Positions 22,029 to 48,900 of a stretch of DNA of 59,180 nt are shown here, in pieces. Within the stretch, counting starts at the first letter, position 1. Each line of letters starts with the position of its first letter. The stretch lies in the IMG/VR virus record IMGVR_UViG_3300007514_000009, positions 1 to 59,180 of that record. One strand, written 5' to 3'. The translations under genes and the position numbers were made by a program. Source of the DNA: a virus. Under the pieces are notes generated by a model, which searched no databases, was not told where the DNA came from, and was given only the letters and a program-made list of their open reading frames with translations.

Positions 22029-22292
22029 GTGGATGATTACAGTAAGATGGTAAAACGGAGAGGAAAGGCATTAGACGCCCTCTCCAAAGCAATAGATGAC
22101 CTTATCCTCAAAGAACCGGCTATGGCTAAAGTCATAGAACAGAGGGAGAGAGAGGGGCCGCTACCAGCGGGAATTGAGATGTCGGACGAGGACATCAATA
22201 GATTGGTTGAGATTCAGATGAAACAGAATCCTTACCGAATGGCTTTAGAACAAAGACGGAGAGAGTTGGACGAGGTGATTCAGAATGGCTGA
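22029..22292 (+). CDS. Small helical protein
   Basis: 87 residues from a GTG start three nucleotides after the connector stop, with GGTGG as ribosome-binding site. It is almost entirely helical and highly charged (KRRGKALDALSKAIDDLIL and MALEQRRRELDEVIQ). It overlaps the next gene by 8 nt. No known family is recognised; it is probably a neck accessory or assembly protein. Confidence 0.65.
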   Translation: MDDYSKMVKRRGKALDALSKAIDDLILKEPAMAKVIEQREREGPLPAGIEMSDEDINRLVEIQMKQNPYRMALEQRRRELDEVIQNG

Positions 22293-31200: not shown

Positions 31201-34200
31201 ATAGGTATTGGGCGTTTAGCCGCAAGAGAAATGCGATCAGGAACCCGAAATATCGCTATTGGTGCTTATGCTTTAGATGCCGCAGACACGGAATCCGATA
31301 ACATCGCCATCGGCTACGATGCGTTGGGTGGTGCTGTTGCGGGTGGTGAGAAGAACCTCGCCATTGGAAACTACACTCTCGATGCTTTGACGAGTGGGGA
31401 GAAGAACATCGCCATAGGTCACAACTCAGGAACAGGGCTAACAACCGGCTCAAATAACATCGCCATAGGATATGCCGTCTTAGATGCGGCAACTACCGAG
31501 AGTCACAACATAGGCATAGGATATGCCGCGCTTGGTGGTGCTTCGCTTTCAGGCGGCATAAACAACATGGCTCTCGGAAGTTATACTCTTGATGGCCTAA
31601 CAAGTGGAGATAACAATTTAGCAGTAGGTTATGATGCCGGAGGCTCAATTTCAACAGGTAGTCATAACACCACATTAGGCTACCAATCGGGGCGTTTGAT
31701 TCAAGCCGGAGATAAGAACATAACACTCGGATGGACTGCCGGAAATAACATCACTTCGGGCGACAACAATGTCGTTATCGGCGCGGCAGATGTAGCGAGT
31801 GCAACAGGCGACGACCAACTTTCCATATCATCAGGAGATGGTAGCCCTGTATGGATAACAGGGACAAGCGCAGGTGCAGTCAATCTTCCTAACTCGATAC
31901 TCACAATCGCCGGGTCTGTTGGATCCGATGGTCAAGTCCTGACTTCGACAGGTAGTGCTGTCGCTTGGGAAGATGCGGGCGGCGGCGGTGCTTCTGCTCT
32001 TAGTGGCTTGAGTGATGTTCTGATTGATGCTACCAATTGGACTAATGGATTCCTCATTCAACCGGATAGTGACGGTTCAGCACCAACGACAGGGACATTG
32101 AATGGGGCTTCTAACAATGTAGGCATTGGTTCAGATGCCCTGATGCAAATTACTTCCGGCGATCATAACATTGTCTTTGGAATGGAAGCGGGTCGTGGAA
32201 TCACAAGTGGTCAGCGAAACATATCAATCGGAGGGAATAGCAATTGGACAGGCGGAACTCAATCATACAATGTGGCCGTTGGCTACAATTCAATGAGTGG
32301 GGCGCAAAATGGAGCCGATAACAATGTGGCCGTTGGGTATGCGGCATTAGCAGGTTCATTGACGGCAGATGAGATAGTCGCTGTTGGAAATTATGCGGGA
32401 ACGGCACATACATCCGGTTCAGAAGCGGTCTATATTGGTGGAGATGCAGGGAGAGCGAACACCACAGGCTCAAGGAACATAGCGATTGGGTATCAGGCTT
32501 ATGATGGCGCAGATACGGAATCCGACAACATAGCAATTGGTCATTCTGCCCTCGGTGGTGCTGTCGCGGGTGGCGAGAAGAACATCGCTATTGGGAACTA
32601 TGCCGGAGATGCTGTGACATCAGGTGATGAAAGCGTATTGCTCGGATATAGGGCGGGGTCTGCTCAAACAACAGGCACTAAAATGGTGGCTATTGGGGCT
32701 GATGCGCTTTATCAAGGAACGGCTCAAAACTTCATGACCGCCGTAGGACATAGTGCCGGATATAGTCAAACAGGAACAGAAGGTGTCTTGATTGGTTCAG
32801 ATGCGGGTTATAATGGTGGTGCTTCGCATGGTGCTGTTCATGTCGGCAGACAAGCGGGCTACAACGCTACCGGAAACGACAATGTATCGGTTGGTCGCTT
32901 CGCCATGTTTAGTGCTTCATCGAGCAATACGGGTGAGAAGAATGTCGCAATAGGGAGAGCCGCGCTATACGGTCTTTCAAGCGGCCACAGAAATATCGCA
33001 ATCGGTTATGCGGCTCTCGATAATGCAGACACCGAATCAGATAACATCGCAATCGGTCATGACGCTCTCGGTGGTGCTGTTGCTGGTGGTGAGAAGAATG
33101 TCGTCATAGGAAACTATGCCGGTGATGCGCTAACAAGTGCTGATGGATCAGTAATGGTTGGTCATCAATCGGGAACAGCCGTAAGTTCAGGAGGATTAAA
33201 CACCCTTGTTGGTTATCAAACCGGAAGCCAAGTATCAACAGGAATTGGAAACACCATGCTTGGCTATCAGGCAGGGGGTTATGGAAATCATCAGTATTCG
33301 ATAGGAATTGGCTATGGAGCGATGCAAAGTGCCGATAACACGGGCGATCACAATATCGCAATAGGCTCATGGGCCATGCAGAATGGCGCATTGACGGGCG
33401 ATTACAATGTCGGATTAGGCTACAAGGCGGGCTACAATCTCGGTGCGGCGGCGCATAAGAACATCACCATAGGGCATCAATCCGGCGACAATATCACCAC
33501 CGGAGATTTCAATGTGATTATCGGTGGTGGCGATGCCGCAAGTGCAACAGGCGATAGTCAATTACTAATCTCATCAGGAGATGGCGGGGTTAGTTGGATT
33601 ACAGGAACGAGTGCAGGTGTAGTCAATATCCCCGGTTCTTTGACCGTGGCCGGATCTGCTGTCGGTGGTGCTTCTGACCTTGATGGCCTGTCTGATGCTA
33701 AGAAATCGGGAACTAACTTCACCGACAGCCTTCTCATCGGCCATCAATCAACAGGCACTCTATCGAATGCGATATTCAATGTGGCGGTTGGAACAACTGC
33801 GATGACGAGCATTACTTCCGCCGCGAACAATACTGCTGTTGGGTCTTATGCGGGACAACTGACGAGTTCCGGCCAGAACAACACCTACATTGGCTACAAG
33901 GCGGGCAGATACCTCACCACAGACAACTACAACACGGTTCTTGGGTATAGTGCATTGGGGTCGAACAATACCCGAACAGGAGAAACTGCATACAATGTCG
34001 TCATCGGTGCTTTCGCGGCAGATGCGGTCACAACTGCAAACAACTTAGTCGCGGTTGGTTATGGCGCACTTGGGTCGAACACATCGGGTCATACCAATAC
34101 TGCCATAGGGCAGAACGCCCAAACTGCAAATCTTACCGGACTATACAACACCAGTCTCGGATATGATACGCTCAAAGGAAACACCACAGGCTCACGGAAC

Positions 34201-35181
34201 ATAGCGATAGGCCACAAAGCGTTAGACGCGCCCGATACAGAATCCGACAACATAGCAATCGGCTACGATGCTCTCGGTGGTGCTGTTGCTGGCGGTGAGA
34301 AGAATATCGCTATTGGAAATTACACCCTCGATGCTTTGACGAGTAGCGACCAAACAGTAGCAATAGGACATGAAGCAGGTTCAGCGATAACAACCGGCTC
34401 ATGGAATACAGCAGTTGGAGATTCCTCGATGAAAAGCGTGAATACCGGCTACAAGAATACAGCACTCGGTTATCAATCCTTGAAAGCAACAACAGGCAGT
34501 AGCAATACAGCCGTTGGTTCAGAAGCAATTAGAGGTTCGGGAACCGGCCCTCAAAATACTGCTGTCGGCGCACAGGCTGGTTATGCGATGACCGATGGCT
34601 CAAATAATACCTTTCTCGGATTCCAAGCCGGAAATAACATCACGACAGGCCACAACAATGTCGTCATAGGAATGGCTGATGTGTCGGCAACAGGTAGCGA
34701 CCAATTATCCATATCATCAGGTGACGGTAGCCCCGTTTGGATTCAGGGCGATCAATACGGCAAGGTTGTTGGTAATCTTGTTCCCTTGACCTACACAAGA
34801 GGCGATTTGGATACTAACGCATACGACTTCCGTGTTCCTACTGAGTCAGGTTCATCTGCTACTCCTAACGCTTATCCAATGCCATTTGCAGGTAAAGTCC
34901 TGTATGCGTCATTCCAATTTTCTGGAGGCAGTATTTCGGGAACCGATGCCAATGTCATTAGGGTCAGAAGGAACGGCGGTTCATCCGGCTCGGACATTGA
35001 AGATGTGACCATGACTATTGGTGATGGTGCGTGGAGAAACACACAAGGCACTTCATACACTTGGCATAGTAGGTTTGATTTTGATTTCGACGCCGGAGAC
35101 ATCCTGCAAGTGAAGCGACAAAGCGGCTCAACAGATTTGAATAAAGGAGTAGCGACCCTGTGGGTGCAGTATAGATGGTGA
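22285..35181 (+). CDS. Giant repeat fibre protein with tail-terminator-like N-terminal domain
   Basis: 4,298 residues, the largest gene here. Residues 1-145 form a compact domain (NITLDVRTVKSRERLSELR, then DRSKKLFRYTIQAEVV) resembling tail-terminator/tail-completion proteins of archaeal tailed viruses, at the position where that gene is expected. Residues about 170-2270 are beta repeats of marine phage fibres: GDITAVTAGTGLSGGG (5), STEQVQDIVGAMFSSNTET (9), NTWRTVTAGGNTLSTSETL (5), ILLWDESASSWKYMT (4) and TADRTITLPNASGT (2). Residues about 2271-4155 are YadA-head-like NIAIGYDALGGAV repeats in four super-modules. The last 145 residues form a distinct end domain. It is likely a trimeric fibre for host attachment. 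The neck location is inferred. Confidence 0.85.
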   Translation: MADAISAVRDLIESNWTKPPKPSIEDIAVLDRGDAKRVRMLDNDVIRIFETAHNEAQPELLYDYVNRHVNITLDVRTVKSRERLSELRTEVRRILHAFRKGDGVNFDRLIFKTRTDLSDRSKKLFRYTIQAEVVTFALVAGTDDTVVNPFTGVVSASTTYQTYDTGLTEIANLTPTNGYVIIGDGSSWTTSAVAGDITAVTAGTGLSGGGVTGDVTLNVSGLTVSELAAGSLQISSEAFADNDTTLMTSAAIQDKILSYGYTTAVGDITAVTAGSGLTGGGSSGDLTVTLDLKDEDNMASNSATHAASQQSIKAYVDAEVAGLVDSAPAALNTLNELAASLNDDANFSTTISTALGLRVRVDTNGQSLTNTQKANARTNIAVDVAGTDNSTNVTLAGSRDYLTISGQEITRGVIDISDDTNLAVSAPITLSGDTIGLADPANLSQLTESSDATDDKILLWDESASSWKYMTVDDLQDSIDTSTLAANDATITLTAGTGLSGGGDFTTNQSGNETLTFNVGGLTIAELAAGAILLSSESFVDSDTQLMTAKAIADKIESYGYTTQVGDITGVTAGAGLSGGGNSGALTLNLSHLGIESLSDPNDDRILFWDDSAGATAFLDIGSNLTITGTTIAATDTNTTYSAGTGLTLSGTTFSVSDPANLDELTESDDNPSDKILLWDESASVWKHMTIDNLGDALDVSTTLNALTDVTISNPAAGHVLVYDNTNSIFENTPLTAGSNISITNADGSITLASTDTNTQLSTEQVQDIVGAMFSSNTETRISATYEDGDGTIDLVVDDMTTNTQLSTEQVQDIVGAMFSSNTETRVSATYEDGDGTIDLVVDDMTANTNQLTTFVIRDDDDDSKTVAHNKYLKFASATGAAGTNWSGSGTTGDPWIMTITNPDTTYSVGDGGLTQNNFTNTLKTKLDGIEVSADVTDKANVGSALASLDGTDTLYIGDAGNDATIRVRGNFYVDGTTTSVNQTEVNVQNAFVFEGATSDNYETTLTITDPTADRTITLPNASGTISLSDTQLSTEQVQDIVGAMFASNTETRISATYEDGDGTIDLVVDDMTANTQLSTEQVQDIVGAMFSGNTETNTAVTYDDSDGTIDVVTTLDGGPLSTEAIQDIVGAMFSSNTETSITATYQDSDGTIDLVVLPGSDQGVVVNTGGALNTTSYMHLAFGGSSSGDPRGIALGHTTGGNNFPGWVTTYNDNNLLLDTNKGTNTGKIEIFEGSNNNIAITPHGTGKIILDGLSWPNADGTANYVLQTNGSGALSWAAQTSNTWRTVTVAGNASLTDSEALTFNAGSNVSITEQNGSVTIASTDTNTTYSAGNGLTLSGTTFTLADPATGTTIDESTADPADRLPIWDESASSWKYITIDDLQDEIDTASGGTVTEVTVGGGLDISNGTSTPSITLDFAELSASGTLVGTDDLVVIDDAATRKTQIDTIPLSIFSNDAGWTSNTGDITGVTAGAGLSGGGASGSVTLSLDDPANLSQLTESTDATDDKILLWDEDAGSWKYMTLDDLQDSIDTTASGGAGEAFKTISVSGQDDVVADGATDTLTLAGGSNVTITTTAGSDTITFASADTNTQLTDEYVQDLVGAMFSSNTETNTTVTYQDGDGTIDVVTTLDGAPLTTEAVQDIVGAMFSSNTETRVAVTYQDGDGTIDVVVDDMTANDNTWRTVTAGGNTLSTSETLAFTAGSNVTITESGGAVTIASTDTDTNTWRTVTAGGNTLSTSETLAFTAGSNVSITESGGAVTIASTDTNTTYSVGDGGLTEYNFTSTLRSKLLGVESDADITDKANVSAALASLTGDDTLYIGDSGDDTTVRVRGNFYVDGTTTSVNQTEVNVQNAFVFEGATADAYETTLTITDPTADRTITLPNASGTVSLSDTQLSTEQVQDIVGAMFSSNTETRISATYEDGDGTIDLVVDDMTANDNTWRTVTAGGNTLSTSETLAFTAGSNVTITESGGAVTIASADTNTQLSTEAVQDIVGAMFSSNTETRVAVTYQDGDGTIDLVVDDMTANDNTWRTVTAGGNTLSTSETLAFTAGSNVTITESGGAVTIAATGDVTTTATQTLTNKTYGPLSSGYVVMGASNDTLAITSNGAHNLHLSTNSNSNSGSILIQQGANQPISITPNGSGDVILDGLKWPQADGTANYVLKTDGNAQLSWVAQTSDTNTTYSGGTGLTLSSTTFNVDAAQTQITSIGTIGTGVWQGTAIAQAYIADQAINEAKLQVSNSPTNGYVLTAQSGNTGGLTWAAASSGGASALDGLSDAKSEGTDFSGSLLIGHQTHGTLSSADHNTGVGIAAMDAITSGDRNTALGHQALSGLTGGGDNTAIGKDALLANNNHGSVAIGAYAAHALSNGKGYTVVIGSQWNNNAFDAEKAVAIGRTALSNTTADYTVGIGSSAGYGITSGSGNIAIGKDAGYNVGTGARNIAIGYQAMDGASNDSDNIAIGYDALGGAVNGGEKNLAIGNYTLDALTSGDQNVALGYNAGGGITEGHSNVAIGHDALTATLIYGENVAIGQNALKQLTGNSYANTAIGRMSSTVMTYGEENTTIGYYSGAALANGAHRNILIGSYAGDNITTGDNNVVIGKADVTATGSDQLSISSGDGSPVWITGGSDGFVNFPASKIKLNDSYGSDGQVLTSTGSGVAWEAVSGGIASLAADSTPQLGGNLDVDGNDIVSTSNGPIDINPHGTGKVRINTTSTDGLKFDVRGNSNETVANFRISTTSTTSNAFAALQLISGTTGTSGTGQGARLQFRTGNDGYAGYTAGAIYSSRVDDSNHHLHIAPQGTGNVSLGNFTFNADQSVGSGQDNYVLTYDHSAETIGLEAAGGGGASALDDLSDAKTFATDNIGIGENTMSAENTGAQYNYAFGKGALQDLTTGDRNNAFGLYALGDITTTSYNVAMGDFAARNATGTGNTAIGRDAGRNITTGSYNTYLGYQAGSPNGAQSGTGDHNIGIGRLAAREMRSGTRNIAIGAYALDAADTESDNIAIGYDALGGAVAGGEKNLAIGNYTLDALTSGEKNIAIGHNSGTGLTTGSNNIAIGYAVLDAATTESHNIGIGYAALGGASLSGGINNMALGSYTLDGLTSGDNNLAVGYDAGGSISTGSHNTTLGYQSGRLIQAGDKNITLGWTAGNNITSGDNNVVIGAADVASATGDDQLSISSGDGSPVWITGTSAGAVNLPNSILTIAGSVGSDGQVLTSTGSAVAWEDAGGGGASALSGLSDVLIDATNWTNGFLIQPDSDGSAPTTGTLNGASNNVGIGSDALMQITSGDHNIVFGMEAGRGITSGQRNISIGGNSNWTGGTQSYNVAVGYNSMSGAQNGADNNVAVGYAALAGSLTADEIVAVGNYAGTAHTSGSEAVYIGGDAGRANTTGSRNIAIGYQAYDGADTESDNIAIGHSALGGAVAGGEKNIAIGNYAGDAVTSGDESVLLGYRAGSAQTTGTKMVAIGADALYQGTAQNFMTAVGHSAGYSQTGTEGVLIGSDAGYNGGASHGAVHVGRQAGYNATGNDNVSVGRFAMFSASSSNTGEKNVAIGRAALYGLSSGHRNIAIGYAALDNADTESDNIAIGHDALGGAVAGGEKNVVIGNYAGDALTSADGSVMVGHQSGTAVSSGGLNTLVGYQTGSQVSTGIGNTMLGYQAGGYGNHQYSIGIGYGAMQSADNTGDHNIAIGSWAMQNGALTGDYNVGLGYKAGYNLGAAAHKNITIGHQSGDNITTGDFNVIIGGGDAASATGDSQLLISSGDGGVSWITGTSAGVVNIPGSLTVAGSAVGGASDLDGLSDAKKSGTNFTDSLLIGHQSTGTLSNAIFNVAVGTTAMTSITSAANNTAVGSYAGQLTSSGQNNTYIGYKAGRYLTTDNYNTVLGYSALGSNNTRTGETAYNVVIGAFAADAVTTANNLVAVGYGALGSNTSGHTNTAIGQNAQTANLTGLYNTSLGYDTLKGNTTGSRNIAIGHKALDAPDTESDNIAIGYDALGGAVAGGEKNIAIGNYTLDALTSSDQTVAIGHEAGSAITTGSWNTAVGDSSMKSVNTGYKNTALGYQSLKATTGSSNTAVGSEAIRGSGTGPQNTAVGAQAGYAMTDGSNNTFLGFQAGNNITTGHNNVVIGMADVSATGSDQLSISSGDGSPVWIQGDQYGKVVGNLVPLTYTRGDLDTNAYDFRVPTESGSSATPNAYPMPFAGKVLYASFQFSGGSISGTDANVIRVRRNGGSSGSDIEDVTMTIGDGAWRNTQGTSYTWHSRFDFDFDAGDILQVKRQSGSTDLNKGVATLWVQYRW
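24565..28371 (+). repeat. Nine copies of the STEQVQDIVGAMFSSNTET fibre repeat
   Basis: Copies begin near 24565, 24700, 25380, 25516, 25645, 27065, 27198, 27978 and 28248. Each encodes a helical STE.VQDIVGAMFSSNTET segment followed by a beta segment TYEDGDGTIDLVVDD. DNA identity is high between some copies (for example 24565 and 24700), suggesting recent tandem duplication. Long reading frames on the minus strand here are by-products of the repeats. Confidence 0.9.
29095..34749 (+). repeat. Four fibre super-modules of about 1.0-1.6 kb
   Basis: Each module opens with GGASALDGLSDAK (29095, about 30820, 31981 and 33661) and closes with DQLSISSGDGSPVWITG or a variant (ending near 30174, 31866, 33606 and 34749). 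In between are many 14-15-residue YadA-head-like units (NTAIGYQAG type). Between modules 1 and 2 and between 2 and 3 lies GSDGQVLTSTGSGVAWE. The third module is longest. The pattern indicates duplication of whole modules followed by divergence. Confidence 0.85.
29662..34350 (+). repeat. Five near-identical GYDALGGAVAGGEKN cassettes
   Basis: A cassette of about 95 nt encoding DNIAIGYDALGGAVAGGEKN followed by LAIGNYTLDALTS starts near 29662, 31297, 32524, 33049 and 34247. A sixth, diverged copy is near 31506 (GYAALGGASLSGGINN). The copies are more alike than the surrounding units, which suggests gene conversion or recent copying. Confidence 0.85.
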
Positions 35182-36082: not shown

Positions 36083-36114
36083 ACTGCTTAAGGATGATTG
36101 ACCGTCCAAGCAGT
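36083..36114 (+). promoter_or_regulatory. Hairpin upstream of the tail-tube gene
   Basis: ACTGCTT (36083-36089) pairs with AAGCAGT (36108-36114), and inner GGAT can pair with GTCC. The TTG at 36098 lies in the loop, which argues against it as a start codon. The element could be a transcript-processing or attenuation structure in the 59-nt gap. Confidence 0.35.
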
Positions 36115-36124
36115 CTTGAGAACT

Positions 36125-38314
36125 ATGGCGAATGCACTATTCAAGGGAGATCTCGCAGAGGTTTCATTCGGAAAGGAAACCGGGTTTGCACTTACTGGAA
36201 CTGGCTCCGCTACGGGTTGGCAACACAGCGCATCTGCGGGCAATACCAGCACAATACTGATTGGGACTGGCGCGTATTTTCATACAGGTTCAGGCACTGA
36301 TGTCGAATTACCTGACAATATCCTCGTTGGATGCACAATGAAGATTACCGGCGGCACATCATTCGGTAGCGATGATTATGCATCCACACGCAGAGTGTAT
36401 TACATCACTGCAAATGACACAACAGCCGGAACCATCACGATACAACCAAGTTTGGCCACAGCAACAAGCACCAATGCGGGAACCGGCGATATTCTCTTGA
36501 TCGAGTCATTCAAAGCCCCCACTTTCGATGCGGCAATGAGTGATGCGACGAACAGCCAGAAGGTTATGACCGACCAGTTCATCGGTTTGCTCAATGAGTT
36601 TCAATTGCCTGAGCCTGAGATTGACGTGAGAAAACAGCACGTCATTGGCATGGGCAGGGATGTGAATGTTATTACGAGTGGCAGGGAAACGCTTGACGGC
36701 GGATCTCTCCAATTGAATGCACATACGCTCAGGTGGCTGAAATACGCTCTTGGAGGTCATACGGCTAAGAGTCAGGGGTCAATGGCCACCTACTCATCAA
36801 GCACGAATACGACTACACATCCGTTCAATATCGTCACTTCGGATCCATCAAGCACTGGCCGTGCTGAGAAGATTTCAAACGGGAATGCAGTCGATATCAG
36901 CGCAGTAGCGGGTTCAACTAACTTCACGGGTTTGGACGGCTTGAGTGGAATAGCGGCAGGAGATAACCTGCTCATCGGTGCAGATGTAGCGAGCGTCAGT
37001 AGCACCACAGCAACAATGACGGGCAATTCATTGAATCACTTTTCGGTTAAGAATACGGCAGGTGGCGTTCTCAAGGTAGGGAATGGTAGCGGAACTGTCC
37101 TATATGGGTCATATACGGGCATTTCAAGCAACGATCTGCAAGGCATAGCAGATATTGACACAGGAGCGGCGACAGCGGCTCTCGTAGCCAGCAAATGTAT
37201 TGTCCTACTCCCTCCCTTAGCCGCCGCTTGTTCCATTGGAGATATCCGCCTCAATGTAGGCGCAACGCTCCGTGCGTTGTTCTCAGCAGGGGACTATGTT
37301 CAGATAATCGACAAAGACACTCATCAAATCCCCGGCGAATCGACTGATGGGACACCTGCAACATTATTCAAGCACGAAATACGCCGAGTGATAGCCGCTT
37401 CTGGCGATTTCATCTATGTCGAGGAGCCTTTCACTTTCGCACACGCAGTCAATTCGTGTGGAATAGACCGACTTGTCTATTCATCTGATAACAGTCTGGG
37501 GAGCGCACATATCGCCTCCACAGGAGAGTTGCAGAACGGCGTCAGTCACACAATCTTCGGCCATTCAACCCTACCTTCCTTCACGATTGAGCAATCATTC
37601 CGCAATAGCGATGTGACCCCCGGAGGGGAACAGTTGCTTAGGCTGTATAGCGGATGTAAGGTGCAAGACGCTGAAGTGACAGCAGATACCGAGGGCGAAT
37701 TGAAACTTACAGCGAATTACCGTGCGGCAAGGCATTATACCGACACAGGCAGTATGTTTGCCCCTCACCGTATGTTCGACAACACTGCCAATACCGCCAC
37801 AAATAGAAAGGTATGCGGTATAGCCGTGGATGGAGAAAAGCCGTATCTATTCCAAGACATCAGCGTTGAGGTATTCGGCAAGCCAGTGCTTCGCGGCACA
37901 GAGTTCTCCCTTTCAGTGGATAATGGCAACACGGACAGGTGGTTCATCCGAGGATATGAAGGGACTACCAGCGACACCGATCAAGTGTCGCACGGTGGCA
38001 CTCAAATGCCATTGGATATCACAGAAGCGCAGCGCAACTACACATTCGCATTCAAGGCGATGATCGAAGATGATGTGCTATGGGAGGAATTGAGAACCCG
38101 GAGGCATCATCAGAATACAAATGATATCACAATCCGACTAAAGAAGGTAGGCAGTCACGCTACAAGGCAATCCGCAGTGATTACTATTGAAGATTACACT
38201 ATTACCAAAGCAGATCATCAAGTTCCGAGCGACAAGGGGCCAATTATCGCTGAAGTCGAATTGGTCGTTCGGCATCTTAAGGTGACAGAAGAATCACCAT
38301 ACTACATCCTATGA
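36125..38314 (+). CDS. Probable major tail tube protein (large, with insertion)
   Basis: 729 residues from ATG 36125 (MANALFKGDLAEVSFGKETG); a TTG at 36098 would add nine unlikely residues. The first 230 and last 270 residues look like the split halves of a tail-tube fold: beta-rich, with HVIGMGRDVNVITSGRETL and SFTIEQSFRNSD followed by LLRLYSGCKVQDAEV. Between them lies a Ser/Thr/Ala-rich beta insertion that may decorate the tube. It is the gene just before the chaperone and tape-measure genes, which is where the tube protein belongs. Sheath genes are not seen, suggesting a siphovirus-like non-contractile tail. Confidence 0.7.
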   Translation: MANALFKGDLAEVSFGKETGFALTGTGSATGWQHSASAGNTSTILIGTGAYFHTGSGTDVELPDNILVGCTMKITGGTSFGSDDYASTRRVYYITANDTTAGTITIQPSLATATSTNAGTGDILLIESFKAPTFDAAMSDATNSQKVMTDQFIGLLNEFQLPEPEIDVRKQHVIGMGRDVNVITSGRETLDGGSLQLNAHTLRWLKYALGGHTAKSQGSMATYSSSTNTTTHPFNIVTSDPSSTGRAEKISNGNAVDISAVAGSTNFTGLDGLSGIAAGDNLLIGADVASVSSTTATMTGNSLNHFSVKNTAGGVLKVGNGSGTVLYGSYTGISSNDLQGIADIDTGAATAALVASKCIVLLPPLAAACSIGDIRLNVGATLRALFSAGDYVQIIDKDTHQIPGESTDGTPATLFKHEIRRVIAASGDFIYVEEPFTFAHAVNSCGIDRLVYSSDNSLGSAHIASTGELQNGVSHTIFGHSTLPSFTIEQSFRNSDVTPGGEQLLRLYSGCKVQDAEVTADTEGELKLTANYRAARHYTDTGSMFAPHRMFDNTANTATNRKVCGIAVDGEKPYLFQDISVEVFGKPVLRGTEFSLSVDNGNTDRWFIRGYEGTTSDTDQVSHGGTQMPLDITEAQRNYTFAFKAMIEDDVLWEELRTRRHHQNTNDITIRLKKVGSHATRQSAVITIEDYTITKADHQVPSDKGPIIAEVELVVRHLKVTEESPYYIL

Positions 38315-38353: not shown

Positions 38354-38779
38354 ATGAGACTGAGCGGATTCATTACCGTCAATGGGGTCAGAGTAAGATT
38401 AGATTGGACATTATCTGGTGACAAGATCATCGAAGGGCCGGGAGTAAGCGCAAGCGAAATTGAATTATCAATGCCTCTCGCCACCCCGCTCAGTAGTGTA
38501 GTCCCAGAGGCAGATTCAGTCCATATGACTTACAATGACGGTTATGAAGCACATACCGTCACCGAATTGAGAACCATGTTGTCCCAACGAGGAGAACCGA
38601 TATACGGCAACAAGGCAGATTTGATAGCACGACTGAGGGGATGGGATGCCGCAAACCCCGAAGGTCTGAACGAAGTTTTGGTCGAAGAACCAGAAGAACC
38701 AGCAGTTGATGAGTCTGCTGACGAAAGCGAAACAATAGAGGAGGAAAATGAGGTGATTGATGATGGCGGAAGTGAATGA
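38354..38779 (+). CDS. SAP-domain tail-region protein
   Basis: 141 residues. Residues 1-60 are a small beta domain (SGFITVNGVRVRLDWTLSG). Residues about 70-100 match a SAP motif: HTVTELRTMLSQRGEPIYGN, then KADLIARLRGW. The last 40 residues are acidic (VEEPEEPAVDESADESET). SAP modules usually bind DNA, which is unexpected between tube and chaperone genes. The 18543-19010 protein has a similar arrangement. AAGGGGCG is the probable ribosome-binding site. It overlaps the next gene by 20 nt. Confidence 0.7.
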   Translation: MRLSGFITVNGVRVRLDWTLSGDKIIEGPGVSASEIELSMPLATPLSSVVPEADSVHMTYNDGYEAHTVTELRTMLSQRGEPIYGNKADLIARLRGWDAANPEGLNEVLVEEPEEPAVDESADESETIEEENEVIDDGGSE

Positions 38780-39119
38780 TTTTCTGGCGAGTAATTCGCC
38801 TGTTCGACATGAAGTGGAGACACCAGTGGGCGTTTTGGTCGTCTATGTCACTCCAATGACATGGATTCAGCAACAAGAGGCGATATCGCAGTTTGTCGAT
38901 TTCATCATTGACGGCGACGATATGCGGCCTTCTATCGACTTTGGTGGCTATTGGAAATATGTCTTGAGTAATTGTGTTAGCAAAACCGAACCAAAGATGT
39001 CCAAGAAGGATCTCCTTAATCTCAGCCCAGAAGTGGGTCAAGCGATTATCCAAGTCCTCCCGAATATCGAGGGTCTGATGGGCGCAATGGCTGGCGGTGA
39101 GCCAGACCCTTTGGAATAA
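38760..39119 (+). CDS. Tail assembly chaperone, short form (G-like)
   Basis: About 119 residues from ATG 38760 (ATG 38763 and TTG 38757 are alternatives; GAGGTG lies upstream). It sits between the tail tube and tape measure like the lambda G gene and has similar size. It is mostly helical with a beta N-terminus (TPVGVLVVYVTPMTWIQQQE). The last sense codons contain the heptamer CCCTTTG in the correct phase for -1 frameshifting, which would fuse it to the downstream frame. Chaperones of this type coat the tape measure and recruit tube subunits. Confidence 0.75.
   Translation: MMAEVNDFLASNSPVRHEVETPVGVLVVYVTPMTWIQQQEAISQFVDFIIDGDDMRPSIDFGGYWKYVLSNCVSKTEPKMSKKDLLNLSPEVGQAIIQVLPNIEGLMGAMAGGEPDPLE
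39107..39113 (+). promoter_or_regulatory. Predicted -1 ribosomal frameshift site (C CCT TTG)
   Basis: In the zero frame the codons are gac cct ttg gaa taa. Slipping back one base re-pairs CCT on CCC and TTG on TTT, the X-XXY-YYZ rule. Translation then continues GGA ATA ACC TAC and so on without a stop to 39475. A weak stem (about 39131-39155) follows. The position between the two chaperone frames is the classic one. Confidence 0.65.
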
Positions 39120-39475
39120 CCTACTCCGAACTTCTCCGTTATGTGGAGTCAGAAGGGGAGTATAATCCATTCACCCCCTCGCAAACAGCAGTGATTTCGT
39201 TCCAGACCATTGCATTCATACTTGGCACACACTTCAATTCTCCTCCTCATTTATGGGATAATCAGCCGAAAGACCGCGTTTATCTTGATTATCTGTTCGT
39301 CAGACTGGCTCAGGCGCAACAAGCAAAACAAATGGAAATATCTCAACAAGAGTCGGAGCGGTATAACGCTACGCAGAGTAAGAGCCATAGAGGAAAGTCA
39401 ATCAGAACAACAAGTGATAGTGCTGAACTTGAAGATTTCTTCGATAGGGTAAATCAGGATCTGAGGACTGAATAA
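39113..39475 (+). CDS. Tail assembly chaperone extension (T-like), expressed by -1 frameshift
   Basis: The frame is open from the slippery site. It reads GITYSELLRYVESEGEYNPF immediately after the shift, then a helical domain (AVISFQTIAFILGTHF) and a charged tail. The fused product would be about 239 residues. GTG at 39143 is the first possible independent start but has no ribosome-binding site and would remove the helix SELLRYV, so frameshifting is preferred. The T-like extension normally binds tail-tube subunits. It ends in a taATG overlap with the tape-measure gene. Confidence 0.65.
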   Translation, partial: GITYSELLRYVESEGEYNPFTPSQTAVISFQTIAFILGTHFNSPPHLWDNQPKDRVYLDYLFVRLAQAQQAKQMEISQQESERYNATQSKSHRGKSIRTTSDSAELEDFFDRVNQDLRTE

Positions 39476-41697
39476 TGGCAAACCAACCAATGGATGACTT
39501 CATCCGAGATCAATACAAGGCTGCCGTTGCTGTCAAGTCCCATGCAAAAAGCAACGCTCTGTTGTATGTCAAGACCGTCGCATTACAGAAGGCGTTTGGC
39601 CCATTATACCGTATGTGGTTGAATGTTAAAGCAACAATGAAAGCGATAGTGGGGATTGCTAACCCCTTCAATACGGCGTTCCAAGTGATAAATAAAACGG
39701 CAAAGGTGACTAAAGCGATATTCACGCCTGTATTGAAGATATTTAATGGCTTGAAAATAGCCATGTTATTCATGGTGGGCATAATTCTCTCGTTTGGGGC
39801 AGTGATGCTCCTAATGGCAGGTAGTGTAAGCAAGGCCGGAGAACAGTTCCCCGTTTTCACCGATAATCTCCACCGGATCAAAGATGCGGCAAAGAGTGTA
39901 ATAGACCGATTCACAGAATTGTATGAATACGTCCAAAGTGCGGATTTCGCCCCTCATGCTGATGCTATGAAAGCGGCTTTCACTGACGCAGCGAACATCA
40001 TCAGTGGGGCCATTGCTACAATTATGGAGGTTCTGGCACAGGTCATTATAACGATAACAAAACTCGATTGGTCGCCAGTAGTAAATGCCGTCAAGGGCAT
40101 AGGAGATAGATTGCTTGCTCTCGGCGGGATTATCCTCGGACTCGATTGGGCGGGCTTGTCATCTGCGGCTTCGGATGCAGCGGATTCAATGTGGGAGGCA
40201 GATTATAGTGGCCTCTCCAACGCTATATCGTTAGTCACGGGTGCTATATCGACATTAGCAATAGGCATAAGCAGATTCAATTGGTCTGGTTTTTCCTCTG
40301 CGGCGTTTTCGGTTTTCAAAGAAATACTGGCTCTCACCAATAGTGTCCTAACAGGTGGAGCCGCGCTCTTTGAGACTTATTTGGACACGGTGATTGATGT
40401 TTTTCTGACGATTGGTGATGCTTGGGTCGAAACAGCAACCATATTCATGGACACCATTGCTCAAGTGCTGGAGATTGCCGGGGGGCTTGATTTCTCCCCT
40501 ATACTCGCACCCGCGATGATGCTGTTCAGTATATTCGCAGCCTTAGTCATGGACTTCGGCGTCGGGTTTATGACTTTCATGGGTGATATGTTTGCGCTGT
40601 TCGGCACATTGATGGCTTATCTCGCAGATACAGGAGTCTTACAGGCTCTCATTGACATTATCGGCAACTTAGGTATGGCGGCGATGGCCATAATCGGCGC
40701 GATTGTATATGCGCTCGATGAAATGGGCATTAACTTCGGCAGTATCTTCGGATTCATGAGTGCTGTAATCAGTGGTTTTATCACGTTCCTCATGGATAGC
40801 GGCCTGTTAGCGTTCTTTGTTGAAGTGATTGAAGTGGTCGCTCATCTTTTGGTTGTAGTGGGCTTCCTCGCAGCGGGGGCTATTGCGTTAATCGGAAAAG
40901 TGCTTGGATATTTGACTGGGCCTACATGGCAAATACTGTCTGGGATCGTTGGTGTAATAGTTGGCTTACTTACAGGAGCGATAGCATTAGTGTTGCTCCC
41001 CTTCCGTCTATTCTTCAAGATAGTTTCGGGTTTGGTCAAGGTATTCGTCGCTTTACTAACTCGTGGGCCGAAAGCAGCGTTTGGAGAACTTGGCAAGTTG
41101 CTCGGCGATTTGGGCGGCATCGTCATAACGACGTTCAAAGGCGTAGGAAGGAGTCTCCGTTCGGTTTTCAAGGGCATTATCGACGCCGTATCCGGCGGAT
41201 TCAAATTACTGTTCTCTCCAATTCAGGCGATAATTGATGCAGTGAAGTGGGTTATCGGCAAGTTAGGTGGAATCAAGGACAAAGCAGTGGAAGTAGTCAA
41301 AAAAATCCCCGGATACAAATCCGCAAAGAAGGTCGGCGGGGCGGCGAAGAAGGCTTGGGGTGCTGTTTTCGGCGCAAAGGGCGGTATCTTTCGTGGAGCG
41401 AAGAAAGGGTATCGGGCAATTCTGCATGGCACTGAAGCAGTAGTCCCTCTGCCCGATGGCAAATCAATTCCGGTTAATCTTTCAGGGGCATTCGATTCTG
41501 CTGGTATCATAGAAGCCGTGAATGCATTAAGAAAGGAAATGGCCCATACAGATACCGAGGGCAGTGCAGTCACTATCAATATAGCAATAGACGGAGCAGG
41601 AAAACCCGACGACGTAGCAAGTGCTGTAAGCCGCGAACTCCAGAAGGTGTTTAGGACACGGGCCAGATCCGGTGGCTTCGGGAGGGGATTCTTCTAA
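39475..41697 (+). CDS. Tape measure protein
   Basis: Sets tail length and is ejected with DNA. 740 residues, with a charged N-terminus and then many hydrophobic, Gly/Ala-rich helical segments (for example MLFMVGIILSFGAVMLLMAG and VAHLLVVVGFLAAGAIALIG) typical of tape measures. The C-terminal region is basic and contains GGIFRGAKKGYRAILHG with TEAVVPLPDGKSI (residues about 636-665), a motif common at the end of tape measures. At about 1.5 angstroms per residue the tail would be roughly 110 nm. It follows the chaperone genes directly. The length is modest compared with the giant fibre and baseplate proteins. Confidence 0.88.
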   Translation: MANQPMDDFIRDQYKAAVAVKSHAKSNALLYVKTVALQKAFGPLYRMWLNVKATMKAIVGIANPFNTAFQVINKTAKVTKAIFTPVLKIFNGLKIAMLFMVGIILSFGAVMLLMAGSVSKAGEQFPVFTDNLHRIKDAAKSVIDRFTELYEYVQSADFAPHADAMKAAFTDAANIISGAIATIMEVLAQVIITITKLDWSPVVNAVKGIGDRLLALGGIILGLDWAGLSSAASDAADSMWEADYSGLSNAISLVTGAISTLAIGISRFNWSGFSSAAFSVFKEILALTNSVLTGGAALFETYLDTVIDVFLTIGDAWVETATIFMDTIAQVLEIAGGLDFSPILAPAMMLFSIFAALVMDFGVGFMTFMGDMFALFGTLMAYLADTGVLQALIDIIGNLGMAAMAIIGAIVYALDEMGINFGSIFGFMSAVISGFITFLMDSGLLAFFVEVIEVVAHLLVVVGFLAAGAIALIGKVLGYLTGPTWQILSGIVGVIVGLLTGAIALVLLPFRLFFKIVSGLVKVFVALLTRGPKAAFGELGKLLGDLGGIVITTFKGVGRSLRSVFKGIIDAVSGGFKLLFSPIQAIIDAVKWVIGKLGGIKDKAVEVVKKIPGYKSAKKVGGAAKKAWGAVFGAKGGIFRGAKKGYRAILHGTEAVVPLPDGKSIPVNLSGAFDSAGIIEAVNALRKEMAHTDTEGSAVTINIAIDGAGKPDDVASAVSRELQKVFRTRARSGGFGRGFF

Positions 41698-42935
41698 TGC
41701 CAAAGATTCAGATTATCCGCAGAGACAGTAGTGTCATTGAATTAGATGCGTCGGACATCAATTTTGATTACACGAGAGGTTCGGTGTCTCATGCTATGCC
41801 CGTTATTGCTACCCGTATAGGACTCGATATGAATCAGACCCAGATAGGCATTAGCGTTGAGGGAATCCTACGGGACGACACTATGGAATCAGGAGGGGCT
41901 GGTGCTTCAATGACATGGGATCTCTCGCTGAATGGTAGTCAGAATATGTTTGCGGCGTGGTCGCAACTGAATACGTCATGGGCAAATACCCGTTCTGATT
42001 CTATTGGAGCGCAGATATCCTTCAAAAGCACAGGGCAGATTAACGAAGGACTTGGAGAGGATATCACAGTGAAATTGTATGACGGCAGTGGCGGGACTTC
42101 AAGTAATGTGAATGCAACAAACAGCATCATCTATGTCCGAACCGATCAAGCAACGAGTAGTGATGACTTAGCCAACAAAATAGTCATAGCCCTCAATGCC
42201 GCGACAGTCAAGGTTGGTGGCTCTAATGCTACTATTCAGTCCATATTCACCATAACCCAATCAGCAGGGCAACAACAAACACTATCACAAGGCGATCAAA
42301 GTGGTTCTGGTTTCGATGGAGAGAAAATTACCATCAAGAATACAGTGCAAGGCATCGCAGGGAATCATACCGTTGTTGTATCGAAGGATACTTCCGGGCA
42401 GACATGGGATACGCAATTTAGCGTGACTAATATGACTGGAGGCTCATCTGCAAAGAAAATGAGTATGGGAGATAAGGTTCAGGATTTACTGAACATGGCG
42501 AATATGAGCGCGGGGGGTGCGCTGGCATCACCCAGTCTCGCAGTCGGTTCTGTGCTTGAGATTCCGAGCAGTGTGGCCTCAGTGGATGCTTCAAGCCTCC
42601 TTCGCGTGGATGATATGAACACTGTCAAGAAATACGTTGTTGGCTTGCGAGTCCCATATGAATCACTCGTCACGGATACCACGGGCAATCAGATACTAAG
42701 GCAATTTCTCATACCCGCAGGAATAAACACAGATTTTCCTGCTGAATCGAACACCTATGAATACGATCCCACTTCAACAGTGAATAACGAAGTGACCCGC
42801 CCCAATCCGTTTCTGGAACAAGGCGTCGCCATCCCTGTTATGCTCAAAACCTTCAATCCATCATACTCCGCGGGAGATGGGTATTGGGATTACAAGATGA
42901 CATTCGATGCCGTGGAGCAATTGGTGGGTCTATGA
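41697..42935 (+). CDS. Probable distal tail or baseplate protein
   Basis: 412 residues starting in a taATG overlap with the tape measure, where distal-tail proteins are encoded. It is beta-rich. An N-terminal strand region (IQIIRRDSSVIELDASDINF) is followed by QIGISVEGILRDD. A central Ser/Thr/Gly-rich domain (about 110-240) contains SSDDLANKIVIALNAATVKV, like phage repeat domains. The C-terminus returns to tail-type strands (YWDYKMTFDAVEQL). Context supports a tail-tip component; the exact family is not identified. Confidence 0.65.
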   Translation: MPKIQIIRRDSSVIELDASDINFDYTRGSVSHAMPVIATRIGLDMNQTQIGISVEGILRDDTMESGGAGASMTWDLSLNGSQNMFAAWSQLNTSWANTRSDSIGAQISFKSTGQINEGLGEDITVKLYDGSGGTSSNVNATNSIIYVRTDQATSSDDLANKIVIALNAATVKVGGSNATIQSIFTITQSAGQQQTLSQGDQSGSGFDGEKITIKNTVQGIAGNHTVVVSKDTSGQTWDTQFSVTNMTGGSSAKKMSMGDKVQDLLNMANMSAGGALASPSLAVGSVLEIPSSVASVDASSLLRVDDMNTVKKYVVGLRVPYESLVTDTTGNQILRQFLIPAGINTDFPAESNTYEYDPTSTVNNEVTRPNPFLEQGVAIPVMLKTFNPSYSAGDGYWDYKMTFDAVEQLVGL

Positions 42936-42936
42936 T

Positions 42937-45900
42937 ATGGGTATAGTGAGATATCATGGAAACGCACTCCGGCTTAATGGATTCACAGATGGGTTAGTGG
43001 TTCCAACGGGAAGGCACAGAGAAGCAGGGATTGACCTTCGCCCCGCCGAATCAACTCAAACAGTGAAGGCAGCAAAGAGCCATGCCACTAAGGTCGGGCG
43101 TAAGCATATCGACTCTCTCTCTAATCCACTCAATGCGATAAGAGGGGGCTTTACTCTTGATGCCTACATCATACCCGATTACGGCGGAGTCATCATCGAC
43201 AAACCCGGCTCATTCCGATTGAAGTATGGTGATGCACTATCCACAGGTAAATTAGTGTTTGAAGTCCATACAGCGAAACGCCCCTATACTCTCTCCACGT
43301 CATTTGATGTGCCTGTCAAAACGCAGAGTAATTCTGGAGTCTATTCTTCCTCCTCTAATGCCCACAGACCACACGATCTCACTTTGGGAGAGCAGGGGCT
43401 GATACTCGTCACCGCTCAATATACAAAATCCAATTTGAGATGTTTCATCAATGGAGATTTAGTCGCTGAATTGAGCCTCGGCGGCGATGAGTCCTCATTG
43501 GCTCAGTCATCATCAGACATATTCATCGGGGGGCGAGGTGGTGAGTTTCGCGGAGTTATTGAAAGCATACGCATCATAAATGGCGAAAGCCCCCCCAAAT
43601 TACAACCACTGACTAAGACAGAGAATACAGTAGGTCTATGGGACTTTGACGATGAATACGATATACCCGCTGTGTATTTCTTTGACAACGCTCACAATGG
43701 GGTAGCGCATCAGGGCCGTGACGGCCCAGATACTCATGATGGGTTGTTGGACATCCCTATGGTGGCTATCGGCTACGCTTTCAATGCGGCTGGCTACTTC
43801 AGTTTGCGCGAGTATTCAGCGAATCCGGGGGGCGTGACAGACCGTTATACCGGACTTGAGAAGTTAGCCGCTTTGACGCAGGGCATCGCTTTAGAGGAGG
43901 TCAGAAACCAAACATGGTTCGGAGGGACTCTTGACCTCACCGATCAAACTTACTTCGGCGCAGGGGGCCAAGCGGTCAAATCGTGTATCCTTAATGCAGT
44001 AATCAATCACTCTGGCACAAGTCCGACATCAGGAGTCACCGACCCACCAGATACCAAGAATGTCCTATGGTCTGACGACAGCCTCATTGGTAGTGTATCA
44101 ACCACAGCAACACTGAATCCTTCAGTTAATCGAATAGAGCGTATTAGGATAACAGGGCTGGACTTCTCGACAAACCCTCAAAGAATCAACTTCACCTCAG
44201 TGCATCTGGCTAACGATGCGGCGAATGGGACAGTGGATAACCTTCCTGAAACACAGGGACTTCTTTTCTCTCACACTGATGACACCCCTGTATGGTTCTC
44301 GATAGGGAGTGCCGACCTCCTGATAGACCCCGGAAACGATAGTGTGGATGCAGGGGTGTCGGGGCAGAGGACACGAGCAAAGGACACTTTCACACTGGCG
44401 CACTTTACGCAGGGTCAGCGTTTTAGAGATATGTCTGGTTATGATAACGATGCATACTTCTTCTCGACCCAAAGTAGGATTACAGATTCCACTGATGCTA
44501 ATACGCTCTATGATTCATCAGTGTTGTATGCGGGGATGGGGGCTGTCACCTCATACACTCTGGTTCAAGGTAATTCTCACCTGAAGAAACTCCCCGATCC
44601 GCTGGAACAAGTAGTCAAACAGACCATTCAAGGCATCACAAACACCTTTTCCTATACTCACGATGATGTTTCTATCCAATCACTGGTATCGGAGAATCAA
44701 CAAGTCAGAGTCACAGAACCCGTATTTCATGGTGAGATTCTGAAGGTAATCAATAAAACGACCACAGTTGGGGCCACGGATTCAGGCAGTATTAGCAACA
44801 ATGCATTCAATCGGATCGTGGTTGAACATGGCGTTGGGTTCTATGATACGGGTTTGAACCCAGACGCTAACGTATCCGCATCCACACGAGATGAGATTGT
44901 AGCAATCGCAGTGGAGGACATCAAACCCTTCATGCTCAAAGGTTTGGATACCGAACATACCGCCGACATATCAGGGGGCGTCCCCTCTAATGACAATTAT
45001 ATCAGGCATCTAACGCCAGACAGTAAAACGCGAATAGCGGTTATTGAATCCCCATCAGCACTGGTATCCGCAGGTGGGCCGAGTAAGGTCTTGGTGCATT
45101 ATGACGCCATCGACCTCACGGGAGAGGTAGTAGCGGGTTCGGGATTGGCCAGCGGAGGAGTTAGCACCAAGTTCCGTGCCGACCATGCAACGGGCAACAA
45201 ACCATATCTTGTCGTCAAGAAAACCATACCATCGGGTAGCGAGGTCTATGGGTCAAGAACAGTCTCTGATTATCTCAGGAGGCCAGTGACAAGCACCAGC
45301 ACGACTGCCGTCCAACTAACTATCACCGCACCGGGAGGGTTGGTTAGCCTCCCCACCACCACCTTCAATGACAAACCCACATCTCACTCACTTTCATCCA
45401 ACCCTACGGGCGACATCACCCCCTCCCCCTTCATCAACACAGAAGATACGGTTCTGGGCGTTGGGACGGGCATTAGAGGCTACGGAAGGCCAAAGAGTGT
45501 CCCAAGCACCAATACCCCCGATGAAACGGCCAGTAGCGACTATCATTTGATGCACCTCATGGGGCGCACTGGACTGGATCACAAGTCACATACTGCATCC
45601 AAAGTATTGCCATCCTCATTCCGTAGGGGCGGCCTATCTATTTTCGACATCATCGACAACGAATTGAGTGGTAATGAAAATCTGGTTTTGATCCACCCTA
45701 TTGAACGCAATAGGTTCGCCATGCTTGATGATATTGCACATAATTCAAACTCTCCTACTGATACAATGTCCGCATCTGTCGAGAAGAATCTGATGAGAGG
45801 CAGAATTGAGGAGATTGCACCGCAGACAAGCGCGATGCAAGACTCAAGCATTGTTATCGAAGGTCGCTCCTTATTGATGGATATCATTGACCATCGTTCC

Positions 45901-48900
45901 GATAGAGATTTCAATCTCGGAGAAGGCTCGCCAGTGAAAGAAATTGGGGATTTGGGGACGCCTACGGTGACGATGACTCTCGGTGGTTTGGGACAAGGGG
46001 GCGTGGATATACGGCCCACATACGCCGAGCATCCTTTTCTCCCCGGTTGGAAGGACAAGGTAGTGGGAGCGGGCAACGCTTCAGTTAGGAACGATAAGCA
46101 GACATCCACTTACTATGCATCAACACGGGCCTTGACTGAGATTCCTTTGTTCCCATCTATGTTCTATGATGTCGAAAAGCGATTGTCATCCAGTAATGAT
46201 TCAAGGACGGCATTGCCTTCGACTCATGCATTCAAGATGTCGGTTGATTGCACTATGGCTACGAATAGACCACAGATGGCGCAGTATGAATCACGCTTTG
46301 CGATAGATTGGGGGTTAAGGGGTCGCGTGTCGTCCATAGAAGTCACGGATCAAATGTATGATTTGCTATTCACCAGTGGCCGTTGGCTCATTCGTTGTCA
46401 GCGACCATCCGTGCAAGCAGTGGTGACTGTCGCACCATCAGGGGCAACCCTCACAGTCGATGATTACTCGGCGTTTCTCAAAGCCACAGGCGAACGAGGG
46501 GATTTAGGATATCAAGGAACGAATACTGATTATAACGACGATACTTCGTTCTATGTCACTATCGGAGAAGGTGTCCTGAATAGCGGCTACGGCATTGTTG
46601 CCAAAGCCGCCATTGGTGGTTCGGCGAATACCCTAACTTTGACTACATCAGAGATATGGAATCCTCTTGACACTTCATCCAATCCCAATGTGAATGTAAT
46701 CACAGTGGGTATGACCGTAGTCCTCGGAGGGTATGCGATGTTGGATATGTCTCTGGGATCTAACCATTCATCTCCAATCATCATTGCGAAATCTGAACTT
46801 GATTTACAGGACGACAACTCCTACGACTCAGGCGGGCCTAAGATGGCCACGCAAATTGCTACATCTATCAAAGCCCTGTTGGGTAAGACCTCAGATGCCG
46901 TTCATGCGGATCCAGATAACGACAAACGATACTTGATTCTTGACGGGCCTAACATGGAAGCGTTTGAATGGGATTTGGAGGAGGCAAACGAATCATCCAA
47001 CGATAGACAGTTAGTTCCACCTATTTTGTGCAAAGCGGTTCATTACTCGCTGGAGGGAAAAACGAGTGATGGTTCATCATTGGCGTATGTGCGCCCACTC
47101 GACCTTGACTTCTCGGATGTGGCTCTGAAAATGGATGATTTTGAGGAGTGCGTGAGTGAAGTCATCCGCCGAATCAATATGGCGGGCCACCCTCAAGCCA
47201 AGAATGCTGATGGAGGTAGCGCGTTCGACCCCCCTCCAATGTTCCCTCTCGTGACTGCCAACAAAGATACTGGAACGCATATGGGCTATGTCCGAGCATT
47301 CATTGGCTCGGAAACTGAGAGTCGGGATGGCGAAAAGGGATTCACCATAGTCATCCATAACACTGTGCCGGGTGCATCGGGGAGAAACTTCTGTGTATGG
47401 CTCAACAACAACACACCCTACGCATACCGCCCCACTAAGGTAATTGGTTATGGTGGATTACTGGCAACCAATAGCAGGTTATACCACCCTAACTCATTCC
47501 CTGCGCCTTTACCTATCGGAGCAGATGGTGAAACATTCGTGCCTATTTCCACCTTCCGTGGCGCACCACACGGTAGTGCTTTAGATTCCGCGGGGAATGT
47601 TCGTTCGTATGACGGGCTTGGGAGTATCTTCACAGCGACTACGATAACCCCTGCACTCGTCAATTCTCAGACTGGGGCCACCTCCACCGTGGATATGCTA
47701 ACCTACAACAATACTACTTTCAATGACAGCACCACTCATTTCACCACGATAGCGATATCCACGTCTGAGGATTACATCAAACGAATCACTAAGATCCCAT
47801 CGTCACTCTCTAAGGGCATTATACGAGTTAATGGACGCTTGGCGGATTTTGAAGGATTGTCGCAGAAATCAGCCACTGGGACTGGTTCGCCATTTACCTA
47901 TGGAACTAATTGTTTCTTCTTACAGAACGTGACGCCAAGAAAGGACATCAAAGGATTCCGCAAGGAGTTCCTTGATGATAGTGGCGCGTTGATGGAAGGG
48001 GTCGAAATAGAGATTATCTATCCGGGTATTGATTCTCATGGGATAGTGTTCTTTGGCGGGGGTCACACGGGCGTCACTTTTGATATCAGTGATGGGACAG
48101 CCAATGATTACAGTGGGGATAACCCTCACCACTATGCCGTAGGCCCAACTGGATTCTCTGGTTTTCAGAATCTGCACCAAGTCAGCACAGCGGCTGCGGT
48201 GCTTGATTTCACACATATCACCAATAATGATACTATCAATGACAACACCTTAGCCGGAATACATCACAAATTAAGGATTGATTCAGATGGCGAGGTCAAG
48301 AGCAACGCATTGGCCTATCTCCGATTGAATACCAACTTAACCAGTGCTACTGGCTCTGCGAAGAACCAAGTCAATGATTTGCTGACTGAGGATTTGTATG
48401 GATCTCCCGTGCGTGTCACAGTTCAAGGCAGTAGCAACCCATTCTCTTATCACGCAGCGGGGCCAAGTCAATATGAAGTCGATGGGGGACTTGGGTTTGA
48501 GGGAAAACAGGCCATTGCATTCCATCATGCTACTGGGGGGCAGACCAACGCCGAGTATGGCCCGTTATCAGAACTGGATGTTAGAGAGGATTTTTCGATT
48601 AGTGTTTGGTTTAGGCCAAGCGCGGCAGGACAATTTACTGCTGATGAGCATACTGCTTCTGGGCCATTAGTATCAGGATTGGATTCAGGTGGTCGTCCGT
48701 GGGGGCTATACTTGTTGGGAAAGAACTCTGCCGCTACTGGAAGTGGGACGACAGATTGGCAACAGATTGCCTTTGCATTCACATATCAAAGGGAAAATGG
48801 AGATTATCGGGTAGTGTATAACGATGTTAATGATGGCGGAATACGGATACATAGGACTGATGGCTGGACAAACATAATCGTGAGTAAGACTGCAAACGAC

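Follow-up and report, generated by a model that had tools for sequence, protein, structure and literature searches.

A near-invariant C_CCT_TTG heptamer as a predicted programmed −1 ribosomal frameshift signal in the tail assembly chaperone gene of a probable Magrovirales virus

How is an open frame translated that lies in −1 register at the end of a predicted tail assembly chaperone gene and continues up to the tape-measure gene? The question is raised by the IMG/VR virus record IMGVR_UViG_3300007514_000009, of which positions 1 to 59,180 (59,180 nt, hereafter the window) were analysed. A preliminary description of this DNA had proposed a −1 frameshift of the G/GT type at a CCCTTTG heptamer. 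The comparative analysis reported here leaves little doubt that the locus carries a programmed −1 ribosomal frameshift signal of this type, in an archaeal tailed virus that probably belongs to the Magrovirales infecting Poseidoniales. This reading is drawn from sequence, namely from the site itself, its near-invariance, its fixed geometry, an excess of stems downstream, the lack of a conserved alternative start and the chaperone-like fold of the predicted product.

The chaperone and T frames, the elements around the heptamer, the tail tube homologue and the tape-measure gene all lie on the plus strand of the window. The frame-0 open reading frame (ORF1 in the ORF list, 38763–39119) encodes a predicted G-type tail assembly chaperone of 118 residues; its best start is the ATG at 38763, preceded 5 nt upstream by GAGGTGAT. 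The heptamer C_CCT_TTG lies in phase at 39107–39113, as had been described, within the frame-0 codons GAG CCA GAC CCT TTG GAA TAA. A single codon (GAA), rather than the two given earlier, brings it to the TAA at 39117–39119, 10 nt past the first base of the heptamer. The −1 frame reads GITYSELLRYVE... and, as originally stated, stays open up to the tape-measure gene (39101–39472), its TAA (39473–39475) overlapping the tape-measure ATG at 39475. A shift at the heptamer would join 117 residues of G to a predicted T domain of 120 residues followed by the TAA (39113–39475), giving a fusion of 237 residues; the 239 residues expected previously were counted from a TTG at 38757. Frames 0 and −1 overlap only from 39101, and an in-phase X_XXY_YYZ heptamer in this overlap has a chance of about 1/256 per position, or some 2% in total by a rough estimate. 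Its conservation in relatives, described next, makes a chance origin untenable.

Relatives were picked by protein similarity, never via the heptamer. A first scan with the ORF1 protein listed 17 loci, of which 13 were true relatives (L002–L014); the chance matches outside the family (L015–L018) were excluded from every count, and the sole product of an early T-frame scan (L019), a 14-residue match, was set aside unused. CCCTTTG was found 10 nt before the stop in 41 of 41 sequences of an alignment scan (40 loci and the window), in 65/65 and later 71/71 sequences of T-frame scans, and in 63/63 and later 68/69 sequences of G-frame scans, the remaining one carrying CCCTTTA. These scans overlap, and many contigs are common to them. 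When merged, window included, they comprise 307 loci corresponding to 64 distinct sequences, which form 48 clusters at 90% nucleotide identity and 24 at 70%; from the first ORF1 scan and the early T scan, only L006 enters this set. Pairwise amino acid identity within it has a median of 48% and falls as low as 26%.

An in-phase X_XXY_YYZ heptamer precedes the frame-0 stop in all 48 clusters, invariably at a distance of 10 nt, and is CCCTTTG in 47 of them. The most distant cluster (L342), whose T protein is 12.5% identical to that of the window and not recognisably similar to it, has CCCTTTA at the same place. Conservation among relatives, which the preliminary description had named as a check on its proposal, is thus broken once, at the last base only, and there by a heptamer that is still slippery. 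CCCTTTG had also been called an uncommon slippery site; this holds elsewhere, but within the family of the window the heptamer is the rule. The stop codon behind it varies (TAA in 41 clusters, TGA in 5, TAG in 2). All 48 clusters write the proline as CCT, and 47 write the leucine as TTG. Among 20 conserved G columns, just this proline and leucine are written with one codon in more than 90% of sequences, as is none of 14 conserved T columns. The codon preceding CCT varies in its residue and always ends in C (41-sequence set). This pattern indicates selection on the heptamer beyond protein coding.

It could be objected that CCCTTTGG is conserved through protein coding in two frames, without any slippage. 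The G at position 7 does begin the glycine codon (GGN) of the T frame in 63 of the 64 distinct sequences, and the last base of the heptamer may be held as G by this glycine. However, the first C of the heptamer and the T of CCT occupy third codon positions that are free in frame 0 and yet fixed. Moreover, in 26 of the 41 sequences at most 6 nt of open −1 frame precede the heptamer, so that T is hardly encoded there, if at all, and L342, whose T frame starts with serine instead of glycine, nevertheless retains CCCTTTA. Dual coding is for these reasons very improbable as the whole explanation.

The second frame might, alternatively, be a separate gene, translated from its own start codon or by termination–reinitiation at the stop. 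Weak starts occur in some relatives—a TTG at codon 6 in several—and in the window, whose T frame has a GTG at codon 10 and no ATG earlier than codon 73 of 120; of the 64 sequences, one has GTG and another TTG as the codon over the frame-0 stop. That codon is never ATG, though, and is no start codon in the other 62. The preliminary description had named an independent second-frame start as an observation that would count against a frameshift, and no conserved start position for the T frame was found among the relatives: in L006, none of ATG, GTG and TTG occurs in the −1 frame ahead of codon 111 (of 121), and L025 has just a TTG ahead of codon 111. The T protein (family A8), furthermore, is conserved from its first codon, and a separate gene would leave the fixed CCT TTG unexplained. 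Such a gene is accordingly hardly credible. Least probable of all are transcriptional slippage, an assembly indel or a decayed gene, in favour of which nothing was found: stretches of three C and of three T are generally too short for polymerase slippage, and the same frame break recurs in 64 distinct sequences, whose T frames differ unequally at the three codon positions (0.36, 0.24 and 0.62 at positions 1–3 over codons 21–60). On this evidence, an independent start, transcriptional slippage, assembly error and dual coding were all rejected.

A candidate stimulator lies downstream of the heptamer. In the window, a predicted stem-loop spans 39122–39162, in which TACTCC (39122–39127) pairs with GGAGTA (39157–39162) around an inner hairpin, after a spacer of 8 nt; in relatives the stem mostly starts 5–10 nt past the heptamer. 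Stems with a 5′ arm 3–10 nt past the heptamer reach a mean score of 15.6, compared with 11.16 ± 0.33 in synonymous resamples, of which 0 in 300 scored as high. When 57-nt segments along T (ten) and G (four) were compared in 45 clusters, unusual stability was confined to the first segment past the heptamer (z −1.56, standard error 0.20; other segments −0.59 to 0.16); over 48 clusters its z is −1.38 (standard error 0.20), with 25 of 48 below −1.5. The arms, exemplified by CTTACCCT/AGGGTAAG, CCTACCCT/AGGGTAGG, ACTTCTCCG/CGGAGAAGT and ACCTTCCCT/AGGGAAGGT, occur in registers that vary among subclades. Compensatory change was counted in a single register class, comprising six sequences, where both partners are altered in four of nine pairs (4 of 500 shuffles), a count that leans towards structure since the class was chosen after the stems had been seen; a second register class (A7) was aligned and left uncounted. 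Taken together, these comparisons show a downstream structure in the family taken as a whole, which may act as a stimulator. The fixed distance of the stop may arise because it sits inside the spacer. A Shine-Dalgarno-like element, GGCGGTGAG (39093–39101), lies 5 nt upstream of the heptamer and is another candidate stimulator, matched by 27 of 500 synonymous resamples and, in a second test, by 14 of 300.

The proposed course of events is as follows. Most ribosomes would stop at the TAA at 39117 and yield the 118-residue chaperone. Held by the stem that begins a few nucleotides downstream (at 8 nt in the window), others would slip by one base on C_CCT_TTG and read 120 more codons to produce the 237-residue G–T fusion, which, by analogy with phage lambda, would link the tape measure to the tail tube in tail assembly. 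Slippage, its rate, the tRNAs involved and the role in assembly are the parts of this scheme that we infer. The standard reading is tandem re-pairing on C_CCT_TTG, assisted by the stem, with a predicted junction peptide ending in ...GEPDPLGITYSELLR. In a variant of it, the P-site tRNA alone would slip from CCT to CCC before TTG is read, and the junction would be Pro-Phe-Gly rather than Pro-Leu-Gly (...PDPFGITYSELLR). The Pro-GGG tRNA would in this case exchange a wobble for a standard pair on moving from CCU to CCC, whereas the leucine tRNA on UUG would re-pair poorly with UUU, and the invariance of CCT in 48 of 48 clusters is consistent with such a route. Nevertheless, TTT is kept as strictly as CCC (CCCTTT in 48 of 48 clusters), and a pure P-site slip would need less; this variant is rather unlikely, and tandem slippage is preferred. 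In E. coli, according to the cited part of one study, the motifs that shift more readily include UUN and all-pyrimidine XXX/YYY, and heterogeneous codons like UUG shift less readily (PMC4066793). A low slippage rate would suit G/GT ratios.

Judged by profile and by predicted fold, ORF1 resembles tail assembly chaperones. The best matches of its AlphaFold2 (AF2) model (predicted local distance difference test, pLDDT, 79.7) in BFVD include the 'Tail assembly chaperone' of HHTV-2 (E 1.5e-5, template modelling score 0.65). Of 17 family members, 13 match the profile phrog_25860, 'tail assembly chaperone' (E values of at most 1, the lowest being 2.5e-5), and the G protein of the halovirus HCTV-5 aligns to the G family of the window (hhalign E 1.5e-5, probability 79). 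Comparison with YqbN (PDB 3klu) gave a middling score (Z 5.6, root-mean-square deviation 3.7, 85 aligned residues). The G protein of the window alone has no significant PHROG or Pfam match, a Foldseek search of the PDB returned nothing at E 0.001, and neither G nor the tape measure has a match in INPHARED. The model of T is helical and of low confidence (pLDDT 72). The earlier proposal of a G/GT-type shift is thus strongly supported by the near-invariant heptamer, the missing early starts in the second frame of some relatives, the chaperone-like profile and fold, and the precedent of haloviruses whose genes stand in the same order. That proposal had mentioned neither the archaeal nature of the virus nor the stem behind the heptamer.

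Several results weigh against this reading or parts of it. The tetramer U_UUG is weakly shifty in E. coli, as the cited part of the same study reports (PMC4066793). The stem of the window taken alone is not significant, 10.7% of resamples being as good, and L342 and some other relatives have no convincing stem. RNAalifold detected no common structure in the ungapped alignments A4 and A5, a result that we attribute to the drift of registers between subclades. With respect to the proteins, a fold search with the T model gave no match, the alignment of T with the T protein of HCTV-5 is weak and unconvincing, and the G protein of the halovirus HCTV-1 does not align to the G family of the window.

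The G gene sits between a tail tube homologue (36098–38314; 23% identical to gp127 of HCTV-5, 'tail tube', by BLASTP, E 1e-10) and the tape-measure gene (39475–41697; PHROG tape-measure profiles, best E 2.6e-17). A SAP-domain protein (38354–38779, Pfam E 7.3e-8) lies between tail tube and chaperone and overlaps the start of the latter; no gene is listed at this place in HCTV-5. The window also holds three giant ORFs at 22285–35181 (4298 aa), 42907–49410 (2167 aa) and 49404–56129 (2241 aa), the first of which has many repeated motifs and a tail-fibre-like look.

As to the identity of the virus, the only matches of the portal and capsid proteins among phage records are haloviruses and viruses that have been assigned to either Methanomassiliicoccales or Methanofastidiosa, and both proteins are related to those of Druskaviridae; the best matches of the terminase are bacterial phages. 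Of 20 relative records (G001–G020), 14 encode a capsid relative with 80–91% identity and 10 a Cpn60_TCP1 protein, which is absent from the window fragment; that of one relative was compared with the PDB and is thermosome-like. Published genomes of MGII-virus clade 1 all have a thermosome, according to the cited part of the source (PMC5332604). Although several of the 20 possibly incomplete records exceed 90 kb, PolB was found in 2 of them and PCNA in 0, and in this scarcity they are unlike the named magroviruses. One relative (L064, 13106–13996) encodes an HMGL-like protein (E 2.3e-20); an HMG-CoA lyase is named for the Aoguangviridae too. Neither a host nor a provirus was found when genomes were scanned. 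The virus is very probably archaeal and marine, and since its portal and capsid match halovirus proteins, it looks like, and likely is, a Magrovirales virus of Poseidoniales.

There is a good chance that magroviruses share a lineage-fixed archaeal frameshift cassette, consisting of CCCTTTG, one codon, a stop within the spacer and a stem kept despite drift in sequence and register. If the cassette works as drawn, it would constitute an archaeal −1 signal whose downstream stimulator covaries and which is adapted to the ribosomes or tRNAs of Poseidoniales. Because the site is conserved in 48 clusters, at a constant distance from the stop and with a stem behind it, −1 frameshifting in archaea becomes open to direct testing, and the chaperone genes of such viruses should carry a joined-product annotation. 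Literature searches found no report of a tail-gene frameshift in Poseidoniales viruses and, on slippery sites in tail assembly chaperones of archaeal viruses, nothing but an apparently unrelated paper; none of the titles listed for CCCTTTG in frameshifting or for CCCUUUG in any context was relevant.

The G/GT heptamer of phage lambda, GGGAAAG, is unlike that of the window. The lambda layout, as given in the cited part of PMC5009743, is the same, with a −1 shift near the end of the chaperone gene, a T extension and then the tape measure. As far as the cited parts of two sources extend, archaeal programmed frameshifting rests on one experimental gene and a few predicted halovirus or cellular cases (PMC8211752, PMC5009743). 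The former is fucA1 of Sulfolobus solfataricus, presented there as the sole archaeal −1 frameshift shown by experiment (PMC8211752); it likewise involves −1 slippage in an archaeon, but it concerns a cellular, non-viral enzyme and an A-rich site. G/GT −1 frameshifts have already been predicted in print for the haloviruses HVTV-1, HCTV-1, HCTV-2 and HCTV-5, at other heptamers (PMC5009743, cited part), and what is new here is a different heptamer together with an RNA stem. These siphoviruses are like the virus of the window in their archaeal host, in a chaperone ahead of the tape measure and in the −1 shift, and the HCTV-5 record has the same order of tail tube, chaperone (as a joined coding sequence) and tape measure. 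In HCTV-5 and HCTV-1, however, the heptamers lie 34 nt before the stop, whereas the family of the window has C_CCT_TTG at 10 nt, followed by a stem.
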